From: a virus
Length of the DNA: 45,184 bases
Virus record (IMG/VR): IMGVR_UViG_3300032246_002410
Coordinates: 1-45,184 of that record
Reading direction: 5' to 3' (one strand)
Shown here one piece after another: positions 4,038-45,177 of this stretch (positions within the stretch are counted from its first letter, which is position 1; each line of letters begins with the position of its first letter). Made by a program: the position numbers and the translations under genes. The notes beneath the pieces are model-generated. The model saw nothing but the letters and a program-made list of their open reading frames with translations, ran no database searches and was not told the DNA's origin.

Positions 4038-6166
4038 GTTAAACACATTATATCATAGACAATACTCAATTTAATAATGATTTCCTGTCCGTTTAATGAA
4101 TTATTAGTTCGGCTTGTTTCAATTGTTATTTGATTATTAAGTTGGTCAATTGTAACATTACCAACACCATTAATACCTAACAATATTCCTCTAATTGTGT
4201 CATACCATAAATTATCACTTGGTGCAACATTTAATGATGTTGAAGTGAAGAATGGGACTGTGACTGAAGTTCCTAATGGATTAACAAGTACTTGAGCATT
4301 GAATGTTGCGGTAACCAAATCACAATTAGTGTTTCCTGTTGTGAGGTCTGCAAATCCTTCGTTCATCATTTGAAGTAAACCATACTTAGTTGGTGACTGA
4401 ACTTGAATAACTTCAGCACCCATTACGTAAGTTTCATAAGAAACATATGATGTTGCACAATCAATTGTAGTACTTCTAGTTAATGTACACCCACCCGCAT
4501 CTGTAATATTCAAACTATATGTTCCTGCAGTTAATCCTGATACTTGTATTTGTTGTGGATTACCTGAAACATTATTTGACCATCTGTATGTGAACGGTGG
4601 AGTTCCTGATGTAATAAAAGCTGTAATTGTACCACTTGAACCATCCCCACATGAAGTAGAATATAATGAAAAATCTAATTGTGCACTTGGTTGAACATAA
4701 ACAACTGAAGTTTGAGTACAACCTGTAGCATCGGTAACAGTAACAATATGTTGTCCTGACACTACATTAGAAAATGTGACAGCAGTTAAACTTGTATCTA
4801 AAATATTTGTTATTCCGTCCAAAGAAAAATCAAAAGGTTCTGTTCCACCTGTAGTTCTTGTAACTACAATTTTTCCGTTTCGTTGATTACAGGATGTACC
4901 TGTAACATTTGTTGTGATAGTGAACTTGTTTTCGGCATAAATAGTTTTTTCATCCATATAGTAACAACCTGATGTGTCACTTACAGCAACTGTGTAGGTA
5001 CCTGTTGTAAGACTTGGAAATACAAAACTTGTTTGAGAATTTGTAAATGCACTTGTACTTCCATCAGGCTTAACTAAGGTATATGTATATGGTAATGTCC
5101 CCCCAACAACTGTTATAAGAATTGAACCATCTGTACTTGAGCAAGTTGAATTAGATGCTATTACTGACACACTTGTTATACCTTGAGGGGTTTGTAATGT
5201 AGTTCCTGCACTTACCGTACAAAATGCCGCGTCGGTAACCAAAAAATTATATTGACCCGCAGTTAAATTACTAAGAGTATATTCTTGAGAATACGAAATC
5301 AAAACGTCTCCTGTTGACGCGGAGTAGTAATATGGCGCAGTCCCTCCTGTAATAGTTAAGGTAACACTTCCGTTTTGCTGTAAACAAGTTGGTGTTGTTG
5401 CAGTAAATGAACCAAACCCTAAGGTTGATACATCAGTAATATTTGTACCGTGAGCAACAACACAACCTTTACTATCGGTTATTTGAACAGAATATGCACC
5501 AGCAGTTAGTCCCGTTAATGTACTTCCCGTTGTTCCATCACTCCAAAGGTATGAATACGGTGCAACACCTGTCATACCTGTGACTAAAATTTTACCTATT
5601 GGTGTCCCTCCACAACTTGAGTTAGGAACGGCATATAATCCAAAATCAAATGGTAAAGATTCTTCAATTATAATTGTTTCACTTCTTCCCGTACATCCCC
5701 CTAAATCTTGAGCCTCTAAAAAATAAGTTCCCACAGATAGATTATTAAAAACAACTGTAGATATATTTGTCGATGCGGAAGTGATGTAATTTTCGGAACC
5801 ATCAAATAAATAATAATTTGTTGATGAGTAATCCGATGTTGAAGTTCCTGTAATCGAACCATTGTTAAGTTGGCAAGTAGTATTTGAAATACCAAGAATG
5901 CTTGCACAAACACCATCTGAAACAGGTATGTTAATGTAAAACTCTTGGTTTGTTGGCAACGTAGAGTCATTAACTCTAATAACATATGTATCAGGATATA
6001 ATCCAGTTCTTGTTGAAGATAAAACCGCTTGGTCTTCTCCTAAGTCAGGTGTTGTCCATTGGACAGTGTAAGGTGATGTACCTCCTGTTGGTATTATGGT
6101 AATTGCACCAGCACCTACCGATTGGCAGTCACCAGTAATTTGTAATATGTAATTGAATTGTGCCAT
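4034..6166 (-). CDS. SprB-repeat adhesin-like tail protein
   Basis: The 710-residue product has about seven Ig-like repeats of roughly 80 residues (residues 1-570) and then a unique C-terminal domain (about 571-710). The repeats carry the SprB pattern known from flavobacterial gliding adhesins: GGT-PY-Y-W-G early, G-L-AGTYS-V-TD in the middle and GC at the end. The clearest are near residues 190-240 (GVAPYSYLWSDG, LTAGAYSVQITDSKGC) and 510-565 (GTPPFTYRWSNN, LTAGTYSLNITDAGGC). Most repeats hold two Cys, perhaps disulfide-bonded. There is no secretion signal or T9SS sorting domain, as expected for a virion protein. It starts at a TAATG junction with the 999-aa gene and ends in an ATGA overlap, so it belongs to one tail unit. 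A host-binding role is inferred. Confidence 0.8.
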   Translation of the reverse strand: MAQFNYILQITGDCQSVGAGAITIIPTGGTSPYTVQWTTPDLGEDQAVLSSTRTGLYPDTYVIRVNDSTLPTNQEFYINIPVSDGVCASILGISNTTCQLNNGSITGTSTSDYSSTNYYLFDGSENYITSASTNISTVVFNNLSVGTYFLEAQDLGGCTGRSETIIIEESLPFDFGLYAVPNSSCGGTPIGKILVTGMTGVAPYSYLWSDGTTGSTLTGLTAGAYSVQITDSKGCVVAHGTNITDVSTLGFGSFTATTPTCLQQNGSVTLTITGGTAPYYYSASTGDVLISYSQEYTLSNLTAGQYNFLVTDAAFCTVSAGTTLQTPQGITSVSVIASNSTCSSTDGSILITVVGGTLPYTYTLVKPDGSTSAFTNSQTSFVFPSLTTGTYTVAVSDTSGCYYMDEKTIYAENKFTITTNVTGTSCNQRNGKIVVTRTTGGTEPFDFSLDGITNILDTSLTAVTFSNVVSGQHIVTVTDATGCTQTSVVYVQPSAQLDFSLYSTSCGDGSSGTITAFITSGTPPFTYRWSNNVSGNPQQIQVSGLTAGTYSLNITDAGGCTLTRSTTIDCATSYVSYETYVMGAEVIQVQSPTKYGLLQMMNEGFADLTTGNTNCDLVTATFNAQVLVNPLGTSVTVPFFTSTSLNVAPSDNLWYDTIRGILLGINGVGNVTIDQLNNQITIETSRTNNSLNGQEIIIKLSIVYDIMCLT

Positions 6167-36458: not shown

Positions 36459-36771
36459 AATAATAAAAATAATTTTCTAACGCACCTTTATAGTCTTGTA
36501 ATGAAGCTATGAGAGGAAATGGAATAATCAATACTGCACCATCATAAATATTATTTTCTAACCCACCAAACTGAGGATTAGCTTGTAATATCAACCAACT
36601 AAAATATGGGGCATTATAAAATTCTTGAGAGACTTTATCCAACCTACTTTTAGCAACTTTATAAATATAAGTTTGGTCTGTTGGTTTTGATGGTATGTTA
36701 ACAAAAGGCACAACAGTTTGTTCACCGTTGATGATAAATTCACTGTATCGATTATAGTATGAATATGCCAT
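36448..36771 (-). CDS. LysM-like baseplate wedge protein, T4 gp53-like
   Basis: 107 residues. The middle has a LysM-like pattern: SRLDKVSQEFYNAPYFSWLI, then LQANPQFGGLENNIYDGAVL and IIPFPL. In T4, gp53 carries such a fold and links baseplate wedges. The start at ATG 36771 shares one base with the preceding stop (TAATG), and the end overlaps the hub-like gene by 11 bases. The C-terminus is Tyr-rich (ENYFYYYGR). The alternative is a P2 gpX-like tail protein, which has the same fold and a similar place. Confidence 0.78.
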   Translation of the reverse strand: MAYSYYNRYSEFIINGEQTVVPFVNIPSKPTDQTYIYKVAKSRLDKVSQEFYNAPYFSWLILQANPQFGGLENNIYDGAVLIIPFPLIASLQDYKGALENYFYYYGR

Positions 36772-39700
36772 TAGTTAAGTTTTAATTTTGCTACGTATAC
36801 TTGAGCCTTATCTTCGTTATTCCAACTTATTTTATTCGTATTTGCTAAAACTCGTCCCAAACCATTAATTAGTTCTTTTTGACTATCAGTTGGGGATGTT
36901 GATTTTTCATACGTAAATTCTCTTGCCTTAGAAGGGAATGGGGTATATTTTATGAAGTCTTTCAATACACCTTTTTCCATATTATCAATGAACGTATTTG
37001 TTATTGTATTTTCCTCGGTGAACTTAGGCTTTGCAATTTGCAACCAATATCCGTCAAACTGCGCTTCAACATCCATACTTCCAGTACCAAGTATATCCGT
37101 ATTCTTAATTATATTACCAATTATTGCATTCTTAAAGGTTTGATATCTTTTATCATCAGTTATTTCTGGAGATAATATCATATACATTCTTCTAAATGAT
37201 TTATAATCAAATTCGGTATCCAAACTAAATGGTATAAAGACATTTGGTTTTAAGTACTTTTCATAAGTTGTTTGTTCACCATCATCACCGTATAATAATT
37301 TACCTTTAAATGTTTTAGAACCATAAGTAAAACTATTTTCTTTTATTACCGCAACATAATATGCGGAAACGCTTACACCAATTTTTCTTATATCTTGTTC
37401 TAATTCAATAAATGTATTGGCTGCTTCATCAGTTTTATAAACATTTTTTGTTGTTCCACTAATGTTGTATATTTTAACATTACCATTTTTTTCTTGTAAT
37501 CCATCAGTACCAACACCAGACCCTGTCGATACCTCAAAGGGTAAGACGTTAGCTCTTGTAAGATATTGAATATAAGTTTGTTGTTGGTTAGTAATATCTT
37601 GATTTAAAGTTGAAACCGCATTTTGATAACTACCCTTTTTACCAATCACAAAATTTTTCAAATTCATTCTTAATTGTCTTATTACTTTAGGACTGAATCC
37701 CTTGTTAGTGGACATAAAATTGATAAATCTATCTTGAGTCGTTTTGTCATCACTTTCGATATCAGCAACGTAGTCATTGAAAATATTATCAACTCTGTTT
37801 TGTATGTTTGCTGGTTTACCTACTATTAAAACATCTTTCGATGTGTCAGACAACAATTTTCCGTTAGTATAATTTCTTTCACAAGTCCAATTCTGTAACA
37901 TAGCATTGTTATATTGCTTCACGCATTCTTTACTCTTATTGACAAATGTTTGGAAATAGGTTTGTGTTTGAGCAACAAACTCATCCATATATTTTTTGTA
38001 ATTAATAGTACCCGTTTCTCCTGTTGTTGTAATTAAATTTAACGTTACTTCACCAATCGTATTTTCATTTGTTTGTGGGTTGTTGTCTTGGGTTTGATTA
38101 ACTGTTGGTGGTGGTGGTTGTGCTCCAATAGATTTTAAGAAGTCTTTATCAATAACTTTATAACTATCATCGGTAACATCCGCTCTTTCGTCATACATTT
38201 CTGTGTTAGCATAGTAGTTGAATGTTAACGCGTTTTGTAATTTGTCCACAGATTCTTTTAGTCCACTACCTCCAACAAAATTAAAACCCATTGTTACATT
38301 GGCAATCATTGGCTGAATACCAATACCTTCTGGATTGATGTCTAATTCCTCATAAGTAAGTGCCAATGATGTTGGAATAATTTTTGTATTATAAAAATCA
38401 CCAATTCTTAAAACACAAACTGGTGGAGCACCAAACGCTGTATTAACCGCATTATTATATTGAAGTTCGTTTGTTTGTCCAACGGTTTTGATTGTTGGGA
38501 TTGTATCACCAGGTCTCATACATTGTTGTAGGAATGTTAATCTTGTATTTAAACCTTCTGGTGTCATTGAGTGAAACGCTGGTTGGAAAAACTTTAACTT
38601 CTCTTTAAGGTTATCGTAAACCATCGGTGTTTCTTCTTTGATAGTTTCAAAGTAGTTACACTCAGATAATAAAGACCTCAGCACTCTTTTGGTTATATTA
38701 TCTTTTTCAACCCATTTTTCTTCGACTTTTTGGACAGTTGTTGTTACAGGGGTCACTGTACCAACAAGAACATCTTGTGTAGTACCTGGTTGTTTTTGTT
38801 GTACAGGTTCGGCCGGTGGTTGCGCTGGCGTTTGATTTAAATTTGTAGCATTCACTTTAATAGACGCTCTTCTACAAGCCATTGCATTTGTTGTATAAAC
38901 CTCAGTAGATGACATACTATCACCTCCTTTAGCCTTTGAATCATTATCCGTACAACTTAATGTGGGCCCCTTTATAAATTTTTTAGCTTGGTCATCATAT
39001 TGTAAAACACTTGTTACCGATTCACCCGCTCCAACACCAGCAACAACAAGTAACTTTTTATCATCATACAATTTACTTGTTGCGGCATTTGTCTTGAAAT
39101 ATTGTATTACAGCATTAATTCTTCTTTGTGATAAATCTTTATTATATTGTATTGTTGCAGGTGCAGAACAACTAGAATCCACCGTAATTGTCATAGTTGA
39201 TTCAGGGGTTGCATTAATAAAATCCTTTGCAATTAAATTACATAATTCTTGAATTTTGGTATAGTTAGTGGTAACCACACTATTAAAGAATGATGTTGTT
39301 TCCTTTGTTGTTGATTGTTTTGTGTAAGCCCCACTTAAAACATTAGTACTATATGCCGCGTATTCTGTCGCAAAATTTGCTGGTAGTTCGCCTTTCTTTG
39401 GTACATCATTTTCAAAATAAAATCCCATATTATTATATTCGTCAAATGTGATTTTTGGATTGTTTGGTGATACAGGTTGTGTACTAGGTGTTGAATTATT
39501 TCCAGTTTCAATTGTTTTAATTGCGTAAGTCAATTGTTCCTTTGTCATTTCTTTTGAAGAAATCATTTGTTGTAACTGATACAAATCATTTGGATTGATT
39601 GTATAATATTTCTTAGCTAATTCATATAAATCATAAGTTCTACATCCCGCAAAGAATGAATCAATAATACTATCTATTCTTCCTTTGTTTGATTCGTTCT

Positions 39701-41807
39701 TTAATACTTTATCAACAATAACATTTAATACTGATGGGTGGTCAACAACGATTTTCCAAGTAAGACTACCTGTTCTATTTGTATTAATATATGTATAAAT
39801 TGGTTCAGGTCTTCCAAGGAAATCATTACCTTTCCATTGAGCTTGGACGTTTTCATTGAAAGTTAAACCATAAGGTGGAAACCACATTACTCTACCACCA
39901 TTAGGTCCTCTCTCACAAACCGCCAAGTCTGCAACAGAAAAACCAGGTGTATTTGATGTTCTCCACGCCAAATTTTCAATTGAGAACATATATTTTTTGG
40001 CGTAGGCGTCGTTAACTGTTCCAATAAGGTTAGTTGAATCTTGTCCTCCTTCTTGTTTGTTAGGATAGATATTTAAGTTCCAAGTCTTATCCATAACAGA
40101 ATAAGCAAACCTTCTACCCTCGGTTGTCATCCCGTTCTTTTTCTGTAAATCATTATACTGTAAGTAAGGAGTATCTTTAGCAAAAATACGACAATATTCA
40201 GTTCCCACTTCTTGTCCAATCGCACCAACATAGGTTAATACTTTAGAACCCTTCGTAATCTCTTTATAACCGTCATGGAAGACCTTACTCACTTGGTCAA
40301 TGGCATTACCGACATGTTGTAATCTCCTTCCTCCTTGAGGTTGGCTGTTGATAAGTCTTTGAGTGTCATCAAGGATTGAACCTTCTCTATAAGTTCTATT
40401 TGTTGATTCTGTGCTGTCGTAAGATGAAGGTTTAAAGTCTTGGTCTTGAGACATAATCTCTCCACCAATACCAACGTGTTTACCAGCATTACCTTTATAC
40501 TTTGGAGATACCCAAGTAAATCCACCTTCAATACCACCACCACTACTATATGTCGGTCCGTTAGCACCAAGTCTCACATCCTTACTTGGTCCCTCATATA
40601 ACTGAGCTAACTCCTGTGGACCATACACCGGTGATTGTTGTTCTTGACCAAACTGATTAACAGGAATATCACCACCTGGTGAAAATACTCTTGATGGGTC
40701 AGATGTTGTCGAACCTACGTAGAAGTTACTATTGTTTGTTGTTGAACCAACAAGGGCTCCAGCAACTCTATCAAATAAAGTTCTATCATAACTTGGCTTA
40801 TACTTGTTGTAGTCAATGTTTCCGAATAATCTCGACTTTTGACCACCACCCGTATTGTTTAAAAATAATTGTGAACCTGTCTTATCCCCACCTAATAATC
40901 TACTAAATGATTTACCTACAGATGTTTTAAGGAAAGCAGCGCTTAATTGTTGAATTGTTGTTGGTTGACCTGAATTGATACTTGCATCGAAGTATGAACC
41001 AGGGATTGTAGATGTTGGGATGGTACTACCCGCAAGTCTTAAAGCAAAGTCTGTTGCCGCTATTAGTGGGTTTGCCGGTGATGTGATGGTGTAATTAGGT
41101 TCAATCAAAGGAACTCTACCTGTAACCAAATTCAATACATCAGTACCACTTCTTACATTAAACGCATTGGCTCTACCTACAGTTTGTTGGATAATACCTG
41201 TTGCAATTCTTTCTTCAAAACCCTTTCTTAAGGTGTAAGCACCCAAACGAGCAAGATAAGAGTCAGAACTTAATAGACCGTTACTACCTTGAGGGTCTGG
41301 TGATAATAATATCCCCACAGGTCCATAAGATGATGGATTAAAGTTGGGGTATGGTTGGTTGTTATAATATCTTAAACTACCGTTGGCATCAATTGTTTCA
41401 AATGTTTGAATAAATTCGGCACTATCATATAGTTGTTCCGCACCACTACCGAAGGCGTTAACCTTTCTCCAATTCTTTGATTCAGGTGCTGCTTCATCAA
41501 GAATTTTAGCGTCTTGGAAACCATATTCACCCTCGTTAGATTTGGTATTTAAATTACCGTTGGGGTCAGGAACTTGTTGATACCCACCCTCATTACCATA
41601 TTGGTTTAACGGGTACAACTTATTTGCAAATGATGGCTCATCTATAAGTTGGTCAGGACTATCTACAACTGAAGTATCAGACTGAACATATTCATAGTTA
41701 GTCCCAAACGTAGGTCTATTTGGCGCCTTAGCATAAGGGGTCAAATTTCTCGTGATGAGTTTCTTTCTGAACGCTTCCGAACTAACTAAATCTAAGGGAC
41801 TACCCAT
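36771..41807 (-). CDS. giant tail tube-baseplate junction protein with OmpA-like domain
   Basis: 1678 residues. Residues 1-560 are Gly/Ser/Asn-rich. At about 640-690 the segment MWFPPYGLTFNENVQAQW, then FLGRPEPIYTYINTNRTGSL resembles the 'F-P-P ... W ... G-R-x-x-P-I ... T-x-R' motif of gp48-type tube initiators. A second similar block lies near 1160-1230 (VCVLRIGDFYNTKIIPTSLA, then NVTMGFNFVGG). Between them, residues 850-987 form an OmpA C-terminal-like domain: TITVDSSCSAPATIQYNKDL, SQRRINAVIQYF, LVVAGVGAGES, ending ACRRASIKV. OmpA domains bind peptidoglycan, and the Asp and Arg positions of the binding site appear kept. TATTTATA lies 13 nt before the ATG at 41807. The gene heads a three-gene unit. 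The junction role is inferred. Confidence 0.75.
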   Translation of the reverse strand: MGSPLDLVSSEAFRKKLITRNLTPYAKAPNRPTFGTNYEYVQSDTSVVDSPDQLIDEPSFANKLYPLNQYGNEGGYQQVPDPNGNLNTKSNEGEYGFQDAKILDEAAPESKNWRKVNAFGSGAEQLYDSAEFIQTFETIDANGSLRYYNNQPYPNFNPSSYGPVGILLSPDPQGSNGLLSSDSYLARLGAYTLRKGFEERIATGIIQQTVGRANAFNVRSGTDVLNLVTGRVPLIEPNYTITSPANPLIAATDFALRLAGSTIPTSTIPGSYFDASINSGQPTTIQQLSAAFLKTSVGKSFSRLLGGDKTGSQLFLNNTGGGQKSRLFGNIDYNKYKPSYDRTLFDRVAGALVGSTTNNSNFYVGSTTSDPSRVFSPGGDIPVNQFGQEQQSPVYGPQELAQLYEGPSKDVRLGANGPTYSSGGGIEGGFTWVSPKYKGNAGKHVGIGGEIMSQDQDFKPSSYDSTESTNRTYREGSILDDTQRLINSQPQGGRRLQHVGNAIDQVSKVFHDGYKEITKGSKVLTYVGAIGQEVGTEYCRIFAKDTPYLQYNDLQKKNGMTTEGRRFAYSVMDKTWNLNIYPNKQEGGQDSTNLIGTVNDAYAKKYMFSIENLAWRTSNTPGFSVADLAVCERGPNGGRVMWFPPYGLTFNENVQAQWKGNDFLGRPEPIYTYINTNRTGSLTWKIVVDHPSVLNVIVDKVLKNESNKGRIDSIIDSFFAGCRTYDLYELAKKYYTINPNDLYQLQQMISSKEMTKEQLTYAIKTIETGNNSTPSTQPVSPNNPKITFDEYNNMGFYFENDVPKKGELPANFATEYAAYSTNVLSGAYTKQSTTKETTSFFNSVVTTNYTKIQELCNLIAKDFINATPESTMTITVDSSCSAPATIQYNKDLSQRRINAVIQYFKTNAATSKLYDDKKLLVVAGVGAGESVTSVLQYDDQAKKFIKGPTLSCTDNDSKAKGGDSMSSTEVYTTNAMACRRASIKVNATNLNQTPAQPPAEPVQQKQPGTTQDVLVGTVTPVTTTVQKVEEKWVEKDNITKRVLRSLLSECNYFETIKEETPMVYDNLKEKLKFFQPAFHSMTPEGLNTRLTFLQQCMRPGDTIPTIKTVGQTNELQYNNAVNTAFGAPPVCVLRIGDFYNTKIIPTSLALTYEELDINPEGIGIQPMIANVTMGFNFVGGSGLKESVDKLQNALTFNYYANTEMYDERADVTDDSYKVIDKDFLKSIGAQPPPPTVNQTQDNNPQTNENTIGEVTLNLITTTGETGTINYKKYMDEFVAQTQTYFQTFVNKSKECVKQYNNAMLQNWTCERNYTNGKLLSDTSKDVLIVGKPANIQNRVDNIFNDYVADIESDDKTTQDRFINFMSTNKGFSPKVIRQLRMNLKNFVIGKKGSYQNAVSTLNQDITNQQQTYIQYLTRANVLPFEVSTGSGVGTDGLQEKNGNVKIYNISGTTKNVYKTDEAANTFIELEQDIRKIGVSVSAYYVAVIKENSFTYGSKTFKGKLLYGDDGEQTTYEKYLKPNVFIPFSLDTEFDYKSFRRMYMILSPEITDDKRYQTFKNAIIGNIIKNTDILGTGSMDVEAQFDGYWLQIAKPKFTEENTITNTFIDNMEKGVLKDFIKYTPFPSKAREFTYEKSTSPTDSQKELINGLGRVLANTNKISWNNEDKAQVYVAKLKLN

Positions 41808-41856: not shown

Positions 41857-43695
41857 TTACTTCGTCTTTTCTTTTTGTCTGTTTTTTTCTTGAACATAGT
41901 TGTATATCTGCTCTTTGAATTTTTCACTATTCAAGAAGTCTGTAAGGTATTGTGTACTAACACCAGGTGGGGCATCTACTTTGAAGGTAATCGTTCCGCT
42001 ATAATCAACAGTTTGATTTACCGTTGATGTTAATGTTTTGTCTTTGCTTGTAACATTTGTAAACTCGTCTGTTCCCTCAAGTAAGGCCGATTTTCCGCTG
42101 GCAGGTTTTACTGTTACCCCGCTTTTGGTTCCCGTTGTTGTTGCGGCTTTCTTACCAAAATCAGTTTTATCAACATATGACTCAAGGCCTCTTAACGCTT
42201 TATTTGCTAAGTCACCAATTTCTGAAGACCTGTAACTCACATCTTTACCCTTAATATCTTTATAAACAGAAATACCAAGTTGTTCAACAATTTTTTTAAC
42301 TTCATCACCTTGTTTTCCAAACTTAGTACCTAAATCTTTCATTACATCACCCATAGATTTACCATCAGTTTTCACTAATTCTTTAGCAGCATCTCTGATT
42401 GAATTAGAAACAGTCTCAAATTGTTTATTAAAAATTTCGGTTCTACCAACTTTATCAGATAAAATTCCTGTTGGTGTTGTTGTAATTTTTCTAAACGCTT
42501 CAAGGTTATCTTTAACCACTGATGTTCCAACAGCACCTCTAATAATCGCACCTTTAATTGCCGCAACATCATTTTTAATAACTTCACTTGTTGTCATACC
42601 AGCTCTGGCAATTTCTTCCATTGTTTTGGGCTGATTCTTTTGTTCAGTAATTAACTTATTAAATTCTTCTTGTGTTACATCCGCAAGGTTTTTAGTTTGT
42701 TGGTCATTAATTTTAACAACATAGTTACCTGTTGAATCCATTTCAGCCAAATTACTTAAGAATTGCTTATCTGATTCATCTTTGAATGTGATGCTAGGGC
42801 TAATTTGTGATAATCTCTTATCGAGTTCTGCTGCCGCCAATCCAGTTTTAGTTAAACTTTCATAGCTCATATTAGTTTCTGTAGCTAACTGTCTAAGAGT
42901 TAACATCCCTTGAGGGTTAATTCTAAATGATTTTGTTTTTTCATCGAAGTAAGTGTATTGCTTACTTATTTTTGAAATACTTTCTTGTAATGCACCGGGG
43001 TCGTTAATTGATTGATTCATTAACGCAAATGGGTCAACAAGGTTTCCGGCAGTAACACCCAATCTTTGAAATGCGGATGCCATTTCAATTGCATTTTCAG
43101 GGTTCATCATCCTATCAGCAAAATCAAGAGTTGTACGCATATCACTCTTCAATTGTGCCGCTCTTGCCGCCATTTTTGATAACCCTTGAACCCCTCCGTC
43201 AAAATTAAACTTATTGAGTGCTGACGCGTTATTAACAACGTCTGTCATCACCTCTCTTGCATTCAAACCTAAATCCCTAACATTCATTGTCGCCTCTTCC
43301 AACTGACCACCAATGACTCCAAATTGGATTCCAACGCTTTCAAAACTTTTAACAATGTTTCCAACATCACCACCTATCGCCTTTGTTGTAGCATATAATT
43401 TAGCAACACTATCCGCAGATGCTAAGGTATTTTTACCTGTTGCAACCGCAATATCTTTCATTACTTCGAGGGTCTGTTGGAAGTTAGCACCAAGTCTTCT
43501 CATTCTTGGAGCGGCTTCATTAACAGCACTCATCATCTCACTTACTCTGGCACGAGATTGTGAAAAAGCTTTGGTAAGTTCATTACCCGCTTCAATCATT
43601 TGCCCAACAGCACCTATCCATTCGTCTGTGCCAAAGGATATCGCTTTCGACATTTCTTTACCATAATCTTCCGCGGATTGTTTGTTATCTGCCAT
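41857..43695 (-). CDS. tape measure protein candidate
   Basis: 612 residues, mostly helical and Ala/Lys/Asp-rich. The N-terminal 130 residues look like a continuous coiled coil (MIEAGNELTKAFSQSRARVS, MMSAVNEAAPRMRRLGANFQ). The pattern in DLGLNAREVMTDVVNNASAL and QGLSKMAARAAQLKSDMRTT resembles tape measure proteins. The C-terminus is Lys-rich (KEQIYNYVQEKNRQKEKTK). It follows tail tube and chaperone genes, the canonical site. No membrane segment or peptidase motif is visible. Using the usual 0.15 nm per residue, the tail would be about 90 nm. TATTTATA ends 14 nt before the ATG at 43695. The main alternative is a T4 gp29-like hub protein, the same functional class. Confidence 0.75.
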   Translation of the reverse strand: MADNKQSAEDYGKEMSKAISFGTDEWIGAVGQMIEAGNELTKAFSQSRARVSEMMSAVNEAAPRMRRLGANFQQTLEVMKDIAVATGKNTLASADSVAKLYATTKAIGGDVGNIVKSFESVGIQFGVIGGQLEEATMNVRDLGLNAREVMTDVVNNASALNKFNFDGGVQGLSKMAARAAQLKSDMRTTLDFADRMMNPENAIEMASAFQRLGVTAGNLVDPFALMNQSINDPGALQESISKISKQYTYFDEKTKSFRINPQGMLTLRQLATETNMSYESLTKTGLAAAELDKRLSQISPSITFKDESDKQFLSNLAEMDSTGNYVVKINDQQTKNLADVTQEEFNKLITEQKNQPKTMEEIARAGMTTSEVIKNDVAAIKGAIIRGAVGTSVVKDNLEAFRKITTTPTGILSDKVGRTEIFNKQFETVSNSIRDAAKELVKTDGKSMGDVMKDLGTKFGKQGDEVKKIVEQLGISVYKDIKGKDVSYRSSEIGDLANKALRGLESYVDKTDFGKKAATTTGTKSGVTVKPASGKSALLEGTDEFTNVTSKDKTLTSTVNQTVDYSGTITFKVDAPPGVSTQYLTDFLNSEKFKEQIYNYVQEKNRQKEKTK

Positions 43696-43734: not shown

Positions 43735-43905
43735 TTAATTTCCCTTGTGTTCTTCAATCCATTTATCCAACAAATATTTTCTTACAAAAATTGGCATTTT
43801 TTCAAAATCTTGCCATGCAACATTCATTAATGTACTTAAATAATAAAATTCGTCTAATTGACCTTTTCTATAATCAGAAGAAAGGACGAAAAAATTCCAC
43901 CCCAA
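43735..43905 (-). CDS. small +1-frame tail chaperone segment (gp51-like position), frameshift product or separate gene
   Basis: A reading frame in the +1 frame relative to the gp26-like gene opens after a TGA upstream of 43905 and ends with TAA at 43735-43737. It reads GWNFFVLSSDYRKGQLDEFY, then YLSTLMNVAWQDFEKMPIFV and RKYLLDKWIEEHKGN. The composition is protein-like, with an amphipathic charged end. The first ATG (43827) would give only 30 residues; a TTG at 43905 gives 56. More likely it is reached from the gp26-like frame by a +1 shift at TTTTTTC (43894-43888), giving a 293-residue fusion. Tailed phages commonly make two tail chaperones by frameshifting exactly between tail tube and tape measure. 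An alternative is a homopolymer assembly error splitting one gene. Confidence 0.65.
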   Translation of the reverse strand: MGWNFFVLSSDYRKGQLDEFYYLSTLMNVAWQDFEKMPIFVRKYLLDKWIEEHKGN

Positions 43906-44617
43906 AACCGACGTTAACTGTCAGTCTATCTCCTGATGGGGTTGTTACTACTCTATTCATGTTTAATCTTGGTTCATTCTCATCCATAAATTTTCTTATG
44001 AATTTGGAATCCATGATTGGCATTTGTTCAATAAATTTGGCAATCTCTCCTTTATCTTGATTTCCATTTATTTCAACAATTTGTTTGTTTAATCTCCAAG
44101 TTACTCTTGGGATTGTTCTTCCTTGAGGATATTGTTCCGACATTTTATTTATCTCCATCATTTCACCATATGTCATTGGTCTTATCTTGATTGTTGCCTC
44201 TGATTTTGGTAATGTAATCATAAATGTCCCATCCTCTAACGGTTCTTGACCATTAATAATAGTTAACTCATCTAAAACTACAGTTGTTTCAAATACCTTT
44301 CTTGTGTTAGGGTCTGTTACATTCAATGTAATTTCGGGGCCAAATGAAGTGTTTCTTAAGAAGACAAGAATCGCCTCAACATCTCCTTCTAATAAATCTT
44401 CAACTCTAATATCTGGTTCATATAATTTAGTTCTAATTAAATTAGTAGTAATATCTTCGTTACCAGATAAAAGAATGTTTTCATCCGCAGCTGTAAGATA
44501 ACCTACCTTAACAGATTTCTTTTTGTTTTTATAAAATACTCCTTGAGATGGTAAAGGAACCACGTCATGAGGGAGTGTAAAATTAGATTGTGCGTAATTT
44601 GATGTTTGATTGTCCAT
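43874..44617 (-). CDS. tail assembly chaperone, T4 gp26-like
   Basis: 247 residues. Landmarks are LPSQGVFYKNKKKSVKVGYL, TAADENILLSGNEDITTNLI, GDVEAILVFLRNTSFGPEIT and IRPMTYGEMMEINKMSEQYP. The 'L-T-A-A-D-E-x-x-L' and 'D-x-x-x-I-L-x-x-L-R' elements match gp26-type proteins of T4-like phages, which assist hub and tape-measure assembly. It lies between the tail tube and tape measure. The end (VEFFRPFF then TGA) overlaps a +1-frame coding segment, described separately. A TATTTATA element and then a hairpin terminator lie between it and the tail tube gene; the ATG is only 3 nt after the U tract. Confidence 0.8.
   Translation of the reverse strand: MDNQTSNYAQSNFTLPHDVVPLPSQGVFYKNKKKSVKVGYLTAADENILLSGNEDITTNLIRTKLYEPDIRVEDLLEGDVEAILVFLRNTSFGPEITLNVTDPNTRKVFETTVVLDELTIINGQEPLEDGTFMITLPKSEATIKIRPMTYGEMMEINKMSEQYPQGRTIPRVTWRLNKQIVEINGNQDKGEIAKFIEQMPIMDSKFIRKFMDENEPRLNMNRVVTTPSGDRLTVNVGFGVEFFRPFF
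43888..43894 (-). other. candidate +1 frameshift site TTTTTTC
   Basis: In the gp26-like frame the codons are GAA TTT TTT CGT. A Phe tRNA on the second TTT can slip forward one base onto TTC, its better partner, and enter the +1 frame. The zero-frame TGA follows 12 nt later. A -2 shift would also reach the frame and cannot be excluded. Confidence 0.5.
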
Positions 44618-44688: not shown

Positions 44689-45177
44689 TTAGTAAACCAA
44701 TACACAACGGTCAGGACGAAGACTAGCTGTGATGTCTGCTAAAGCGTCTGTTGAATATCCTAAAGAACCAAAGTCCACACTTGTTAGGAAGGTTCCGTAA
44801 AGAATCCATTTTTCAACAACAACACCTGTCGGGTCTAACATCTCCAAGTCAATGTCTTTTTTATAACCTGCCGCATATCCCATACGACCTGTCACAGATT
44901 CTGCGTGTAAACGAACCCACTCCATAAGAGCCTGAGCCGCTGACGGTCCGATTGGGTCTCTAAACTTAACTGTCATTTCGTCCCAGTTAAATCTACCTGC
45001 AACATATGTTGATGTATTTAAAAATTGTATTTCTGTTGAAACAATTTTGATAGATGGTCTTTTCGTACTTTCCACGAACCACTCATTAATTCCCAAACTT
45101 GAAGGAAACCTCAAGATGAATCGGTTCTGACGTTTCGGTTCGTAAGGAATCGGCATTTTCATTAGTAAATCAGCCAT
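44689..45177 (-). CDS. tail tube protein, T4 gp19-like
   Basis: 162 residues, complete (MADLLMKMPIPYEPKRQNRF to VLVY). The N-terminal PYEPKRQNRFILRFPSSLGI, the VESTKRPSIKIVSTEI strand and FNWDEMTVKFRDPIGPSAAQ are the signature of gp19-type tubes ('K-R-Q-N-R-F', 'W-x-x-x-x-x-x-F-x-D-P'). LMEWVRLHAESVTGRMGYAA is the conserved helix and GTFLTSVDFGSLGY the inner strand. It forms the stacked hexameric rings of the inner tail tube. Length agrees with T4 gp19 (about 163). Only 7 bases remain upstream, so its promoter and the expected sheath gene lie outside the window. Confidence 0.92.
   Translation of the reverse strand: MADLLMKMPIPYEPKRQNRFILRFPSSLGINEWFVESTKRPSIKIVSTEIQFLNTSTYVAGRFNWDEMTVKFRDPIGPSAAQALMEWVRLHAESVTGRMGYAAGYKKDIDLEMLDPTGVVVEKWILYGTFLTSVDFGSLGYSTDALADITASLRPDRCVLVY

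Follow-up and report, generated by a model that had tools for sequence, protein, structure and literature searches.

The locus described here raises the question of how a protein-like stretch of 50 codons, lying in the +1 frame beyond the stop codon of a T4 gp26-like gene, comes to be expressed. The locus is entirely on the minus strand of the window, the name used here for the whole 45,184-base virus contig record that was analyzed. The reading that we favor, with a probability of roughly 0.88, is that +1 slippage of tRNA-Phe at UUU_Y gives rise to a G/GT chaperone pair in the window phage, the gp26-like protein being G and the additional C-terminal domain being designated T.

Overlapping frames between the tail tube and probable tape-measure genes

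The zero-frame product of the gp26-like gene (43874-44617, minus strand) has 247 amino acids, ends in ...VNVGFGV EFF RPFF, and is closed by a TGA codon at 43874-43876. The overlapping +1 ORF (43735-43905, minus strand) has a TTG at 43903-43905 as its sole opening codon and reads ...FF VLSSDYRKGQLDEFYYLSTLMNVAWQDFEKMPIFVRKYLLDKWIEEHKGN before its TAA stop at 43735-43737. The T domain within it (43738-43887, minus strand) comprises the 50 residues that would follow the slip and is predicted to contain three helices. If TTTC is read once as Phe, a step used only once, a single open frame of exactly 293 residues results; the proposed G-T fusion (43735-44617, minus strand) is thus inferred, without peptide proof. 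The initial annotation had described both frames with their stops, a run of six T at 43889-43894, and a 293-residue fusion; all of these coordinates were confirmed, and the length of the fusion was reproduced by read-through of the window DNA.

The gene had also been placed between those of the tail tube and the tape measure, and this position is upheld by the neighbors on both sides. The upstream gene (44689-45177, minus strand) encodes a tail tube protein that matches phrog_4542 with an E-value of 1.4e-24. The downstream gene (41857-43695, minus strand), whose start at 43695 is just past the stop of the T frame, encodes a probable tape-measure protein of 612 amino acids, an assignment that rests on its position and on a weak match to PhageMin_Tail (E 4.9e-4, under the curated cut-off); a tape measure is annotated at the equivalent place in Immutovirus, SP-15, LIS04, and phiXF1. 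Such a location is that expected of G/GT chaperone genes. Farther along the minus strand, at 36771-41807, there is a 1678-residue protein of the tail region, residues 864-932 of which weakly match OmpA-like sequences (E 0.034, below the cut-off).

The T4-like gp26 identity proposed for the gene is borne out by matches of its product to PF12322 (E 3.7e-9; 37 bits, above the curated cut-off of 24.5) and to phrog_150 (PHROG 150, "baseplate hub"; E 1.3e-14). The AF2 model of the zero-frame protein (pLDDT 85.9), which was folded separately from the +1 ORF and not as a fusion, matches the SP-15 baseplate hub protein (E 1e-17) and gp26 of Aeromonas phage 25 (E 1.6e-5) among BFVD structures, so that it shares its fold with named gp26 proteins. 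A sequence search of the PDB found no relative of the protein, and none of the PDB structural matches of the zero-frame model is significant by E-value; the match of highest probability (0.47, with an E-value of 1.4) is the HK97 tail assembly chaperone 2ob9, and the others among the 50 listed have probabilities of 0.08 or less. In the AF2 model of the +1 ORF (pLDDT 79.5), helices are formed by residues 8-24, 29-33, and 37-51, and T looks, in this model, like a separate small helical domain. No significant match to T alone was found among BFVD structures.

The relation between the two frames is widespread. In a profile search with an HMM of the T domain, T proved to be out of frame with gp26 at 183 of the 189 gp26 loci, 180 of them having it in the +1 frame and 3 in the -1 frame, and no locus had it in frame, so that a homologue with a single continuous frame, which would have refuted the initial interpretation, was not encountered at these loci by this HMM. 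It should be recognized that the HMM was built from 25 loci, that these seeds are counted among the 189, and that the loci are related, so that the counts do not represent independent events. The T frame is also under selection. Among 54 distinct close relatives, pN/pS for the 50 codons that extend beyond the gp26-like stop to 43735 is 0.22 in the frame of T itself, compared with 0.81 and 1.71 for the remaining frames, and it is 0.24 for gp26. Purifying selection constrains T no less than gp26, and the effect is far beyond chance. Within T, synonymous variation is depressed over just the first six codons, most of which are dual-coded, and is normal soon after the overlap; variation along T gave no indication of a conserved downstream stimulatory RNA element, and a search of Rfam returned nothing relevant at the locus (HrrF, E 0.19, is below its threshold).

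The proposed slip site

The proposed +1 slip site is TTT_CGT (43886-43891, minus strand), in which TTT at 43889-43891 would occupy the P site and CGT at 43886-43888 the A site; it consists of the second half of the run of six T and the codon that follows. A scan of viral contigs gave 338 relatives; 80 of these were retained, several on contigs of 137-321 kb, and both frames persist in all of the retained close relatives with enough sequence. TTT_CGY is present in 54/54 distinct close relatives, and zero-frame TTT CGY CCT TTC TTC closes gp26 in every one. The initial annotation had called for conservation of both frames and of the six-T run; the former holds, and the latter does not, as loci L031-L036 have TTC TTT CGY. 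The preceding Phe codon may therefore be TTC, a run of six T is not needed, and the invariant element is the second TTT with CGY.

More distant relatives were collected by using gp26 of two other phages as search seeds; they are mostly 38-59% identical to these seeds, and their gp26 proteins are 22-30% identical to that of the window. In almost all, the T domain is in the +1 frame over TTT TTT TGG CCT, and the same frame relation is found in cultured phages, namely Microcystis phage Mel-JY01, Flavobacterium phage Immutovirus, Bacillus phage SP-15, and GXN1. The P-site codon is TTT at 144 of 145 distinct +1 loci and CTT at the remaining one (Immutovirus, CTT_TGG); the A-site codon is TGG at 84, CGY at 55, and one of a few others elsewhere, TTT_TGG occurring at 83 loci and TTT_CGY at 55. 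The nine bases TTTTGGCCT are invariant in the 83 distinct TGG-type sequences, the preceding Phe codon being TTC in about 14%. The sites across relatives include UUU_CGY, UUU_UGG, UUU_UAC, UUU_CCC, CUU_UGG, and others; QdP_Psa3 and phiXF1 (TTT_CCC_TAA) are included among the 145 by position only, their T lacking HMM support. Ribosomes probably slip +1 near the end of gp26 in the window phage and in more than 100 distinct relatives.

The A-site codon is rare in the window, where CGT is used 1.4 times and CGC 0.07 times per 1000 codons, compared with 26 for AGA. The slip site is the single in-frame case of TTT_CGN among 14,541 window codons; the chance expectation for TTT_CGY is only 0.7, and avoidance of TTT_CGN is therefore not demonstrated. 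A possible stimulator is TTT GGG at gp26 codons 238-239 (43901-43906, minus strand), which lies upstream of the overlap translated in two frames and is synonymous-invariant, varying in 0/54 distinct relatives. The invariant GGGG element here is spaced 8 nt from the P site, off the optimum for RF2, and doubles as the coding sequence of the recurrent TTG of the +1 ORF.

In the proposed mechanism, most ribosomes would terminate at the zero-frame stop (43876-43874) and release the 247-residue G-like protein. A minority would stall while peptidyl-tRNA-Phe occupies UUU in the P site and the A site presents a codon that is read slowly, this being the rare CGU in the window and UGG in the larger sister group; tRNA-Phe could then move +1 from UUU to UUC (or UUU), with which its GAA anticodon should pair equally well or better, and continued reading in the +1 frame would generate the 293-residue fusion with the three-helix T domain at its C terminus. 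By analogy with phage lambda, the role of G would be to coat the tape measure and that of GT, the less abundant product, to bring in tail-tube subunits; neither need remain in the virion. The shift itself, its efficiency, and the chaperone roles are inferences, and there is no peptide, ribosome-profiling, or reporter evidence behind the proposed shift.

Schwartz and Curran (1997; cited in PMC3789692) reportedly studied frameshifting in Escherichia coli at UUU codons with a pyrimidine as the next base. The identical UUU_CGN motif, again with an Arg codon in the A site that is rare or slowly decoded, is used for +1 shifts in influenza PA-X, where the site is UCC_UUU_CGU and the change of UUU_CGU to UUC_AGA abolishes the shift (PMC3498833), and in plant amalgaviruses (PMC5052127), but these are RNA viruses translated by eukaryotic ribosomes and the proteins are unrelated. 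Slippage by +1 in the P site is also a feature of RF2 (CUU_UGA), Listeria PSA (CCC_UGA), and a rhizobial ICE, which shifts at UUU (PMC5009743), but other genes are involved and the A site in the window holds a sense codon. The window also differs from RF2 in that no internal Shine-Dalgarno sequence of the RF2 type is evident at optimal spacing. The P-site CTT of Immutovirus is an RF2-type slip codon. In yopN of Yersinia, UUU-UGG was proposed as a slip site, but its mutation did not abolish the hybrid protein (PMC3789692), so that a slip motif alone is no proof.

Other routes to the T frame

The frame of T could also be reached by a -2 shift, as in phage Mu, or by a later shift at CCT_TTC or TTC_TGA, and the codons CCT TTC TTC are as invariant as the slip site, although this is attributable to their location inside the dual-coded overlap. 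Either route is very unlikely. At TTC TTT CGY a -2 shift would place tRNA-Phe on UCU; in L038 and L071-L080 the stop is two codons further on and does not adjoin the site that a later shift would use; and what the lineages have in common is TTT with T or C as the next base. The routes would differ in the trans-frame product, for which the predicted tryptic peptide is LTVNVGFGVEFFVLSSDYR in the case of a +1 shift at TTT; a -2 shift would add one residue, and a later shift would retain FFR or FFRP.

A second alternative is that T is a separate gene with its own start inside the end of gp26, either the TTG at 43905 or a coupled re-initiation near the gp26 stop. In its favor, most members of the window clade have a TTG at -29 and about half have an ATG at -38, the TTT GGG that encodes the TTG is synonymous-invariant, and T does exist as an ATG-started ORF in two loci, L098 and L103. 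However, an in-frame TAG separates the TTG from T in L009, L028, L038, and L059, and no ATG, GTG, or TTG is available at 29 of 84 TGG-type loci, or at 35 of the 145 distinct loci overall. The second frame was originally perceived to lack a good start, and no start codon is conserved for it: in place of the conserved ATG that would have been damaging to the frameshift reading, the window clade has only the recurrent TTG. A Shine-Dalgarno motif is also missing from the window leaders save 1 of 21, and an independent start leaves the invariance of TTT_CGY or TTT_TGG unexplained. We consider this possibility very doubtful.

Slippage of RNA polymerase on the T run, producing mRNAs that have gained or lost bases and so carry T in frame, might be entertained for the window, with its six T, and for most TGG-type relatives, with seven. 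It is rendered highly improbable by loci in which both frames are intact and the T run is no longer than three or four bases, namely TTC TTT CGY (L031-L036), TTC TTT TGG (12 distinct loci), and TTT CTT TGG (Immutovirus). Loci that have no start for T and others that have no T run therefore argue against an independent start and transcriptional slippage, respectively. A sequencing or assembly indel, for which a six-base homopolymer in a metagenomic contig gives some cause and which could be tested only through relatives, or decay of the gene, is hardly credible, since the frame relation persists at 180 loci on independent contigs and in cultured phages, and purifying selection is strong in both frames. 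On the counts of start codons, run lengths, and frames, an independent start, transcriptional slippage, and assembly error were rejected as general explanations, and +1 slippage at UUU_Y is retained as the preferred reading.

Direction of the proposed shift and the T4 gp26 and gp51 proteins

In several jumbo phages the shift would take the opposite direction. PA5oct, PBECO4, GAP32, Atu_ph07, and K64-1 have T_TTT_TTC at the end of gp26, and RAS14 and XacN1 have T_TTT_TTT; in these seven a T-like ORF, not annotated as a frameshift, lies in the -1 frame over the equivalent Phe-Phe codons. Support from the T HMM is good for PBECO4, GAP32, K64-1, and XacN1 and weak for RAS14, and the match is not significant for PA5oct and Atu_ph07. 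From these sequences it is probable that some proteobacterial jumbo phages make a -1 version of the gp26 frameshift at U_UUU_UUY. In a tree of 60 proteins, which carries long-branch warnings, these -1 phages form one clade (98/99), the window CGY type forms another (100/100), and gp26 and gp51 of the Straboviridae cluster together (99/98). The Streptococcus phage vB_SagM-GXN1 has TTC TTT_CGT around position 5700 of its locus (L191), yet its gp26 groups with those of SP-15 and LIS04; given this grouping, UUU_CGU probably arose twice, to judge from the sequences. In L098 (around 3727) and L103 (around 3715), T is a separate ATG-started ORF right after the gp26 stop. These two loci adjoin the +1 Immutovirus in the tree, so that the frameshift looks secondarily lost, and they indicate that not every lineage strictly needs the fusion.

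In one listing (PMC3004832), T4 gp26 and gp51 are classed as hub assembly chaperones, and gp51 is described as essential, missing from the particle, and of unknown function. Both match PF12322 and phrog_150, the family to which the window gene belongs, and when they are compared profile to profile (hhalign) the E-value is 4e-23. The approximately 45 extra residues of gp51 have a profile that matches T in register, with E-values of 6e-4 to 3e-5 and scores of 21.5 to 28.1, compared with 17.5 or less for 100 column shuffles. The match rests on short profiles and is of moderate strength, and a profile-profile comparison was needed to detect it, the T HMM giving no significant match to the single T4 gp51 sequence. 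T4 gp51 is a gp26 paralogue and, with moderate confidence, can be regarded as having a C-terminal homologue of T in the right place. T4 differs from the window phage in having two separate genes and no frameshift, its gp26 lacking T; it probably encodes G (gp26) and GT (gp51, with T fused) as duplicated genes. The homology of gp26 and gp51 is a result of the comparison, whereas the identification of gp51 as GT is an inference. From the paralogy and the T-like tail of gp51, the Straboviridae are inferred to have split one frameshifted gene into two.

The gene resembles lambda gpG/gpGT and its counterparts in other long-tailed phages in having overlapping frames between the tail tube and tape measure, a G protein and, by inference, a G-T fusion, and a small T. 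It differs in that the usual shift is -1 at an X_XXY_YYZ heptamer, whereas that proposed here is +1 at UUU_Y and G belongs to the T4 gp26 family (PF12322). On this analogy, the window gene is very probably the T4-type counterpart of the lambda gene for the G/GT tail-assembly chaperones. A somewhat favored, less secure view of the whole family is that G-T frameshifting is ancestral, that its direction depends on lineage (+1 at UUU_CGN, UUU_UGG, and others; -1 at U_UUU_UUY), and that duplication in the Straboviridae gave gp26 (G) and gp51 (GT). According to a 2016 review (PMC5009743), long-tailed phages share a conserved G/GT frameshift "except T4", and no report of frameshifting in the gp26 family was found in the openly accessible literature that was searched. 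If the present interpretation is correct, T4-type phages would be no exception, since most of the sampled distant relatives would frameshift and T4 would have paralogues instead, and gp51, an essential hub assembly protein without a known function, would acquire a testable one. The gp26 loci would also provide a rich collection of naturally occurring bacterial +1 sites, along with an example of a gene whose shift has opposite directions in different lineages.

Although the frameshift reading of the initial annotation is supported, the shift itself, in the absence of peptides or a reporter, and the Bacteroidota host are not established. The breadth of the arrangement among phages and the connection to T4 gp26 and gp51 had escaped that annotation. 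No relative turned up when bacterial genomes were scanned, and the host is therefore not fixed. Few Shine-Dalgarno leaders are expected for phages of Bacteroidota; the proportion of window leaders with such a motif (1/21) is below the background of 9%, and a more distant Flavobacterium phage has an equivalent architecture. These are the sole pointers to a Bacteroidota host, and they do point that way.

All of the isolates that were inspected are annotated without the fusion, T being absent, a remnant, or a separate hypothetical protein. No ORF is annotated where T lies in LIS04, and in three other cultured phages the annotations at T are short hypothetical ORFs of 36, 39, and 78 amino acids (L188, 5848-5958; L190, 5812-5931; and L086, 3989-4225, respectively).
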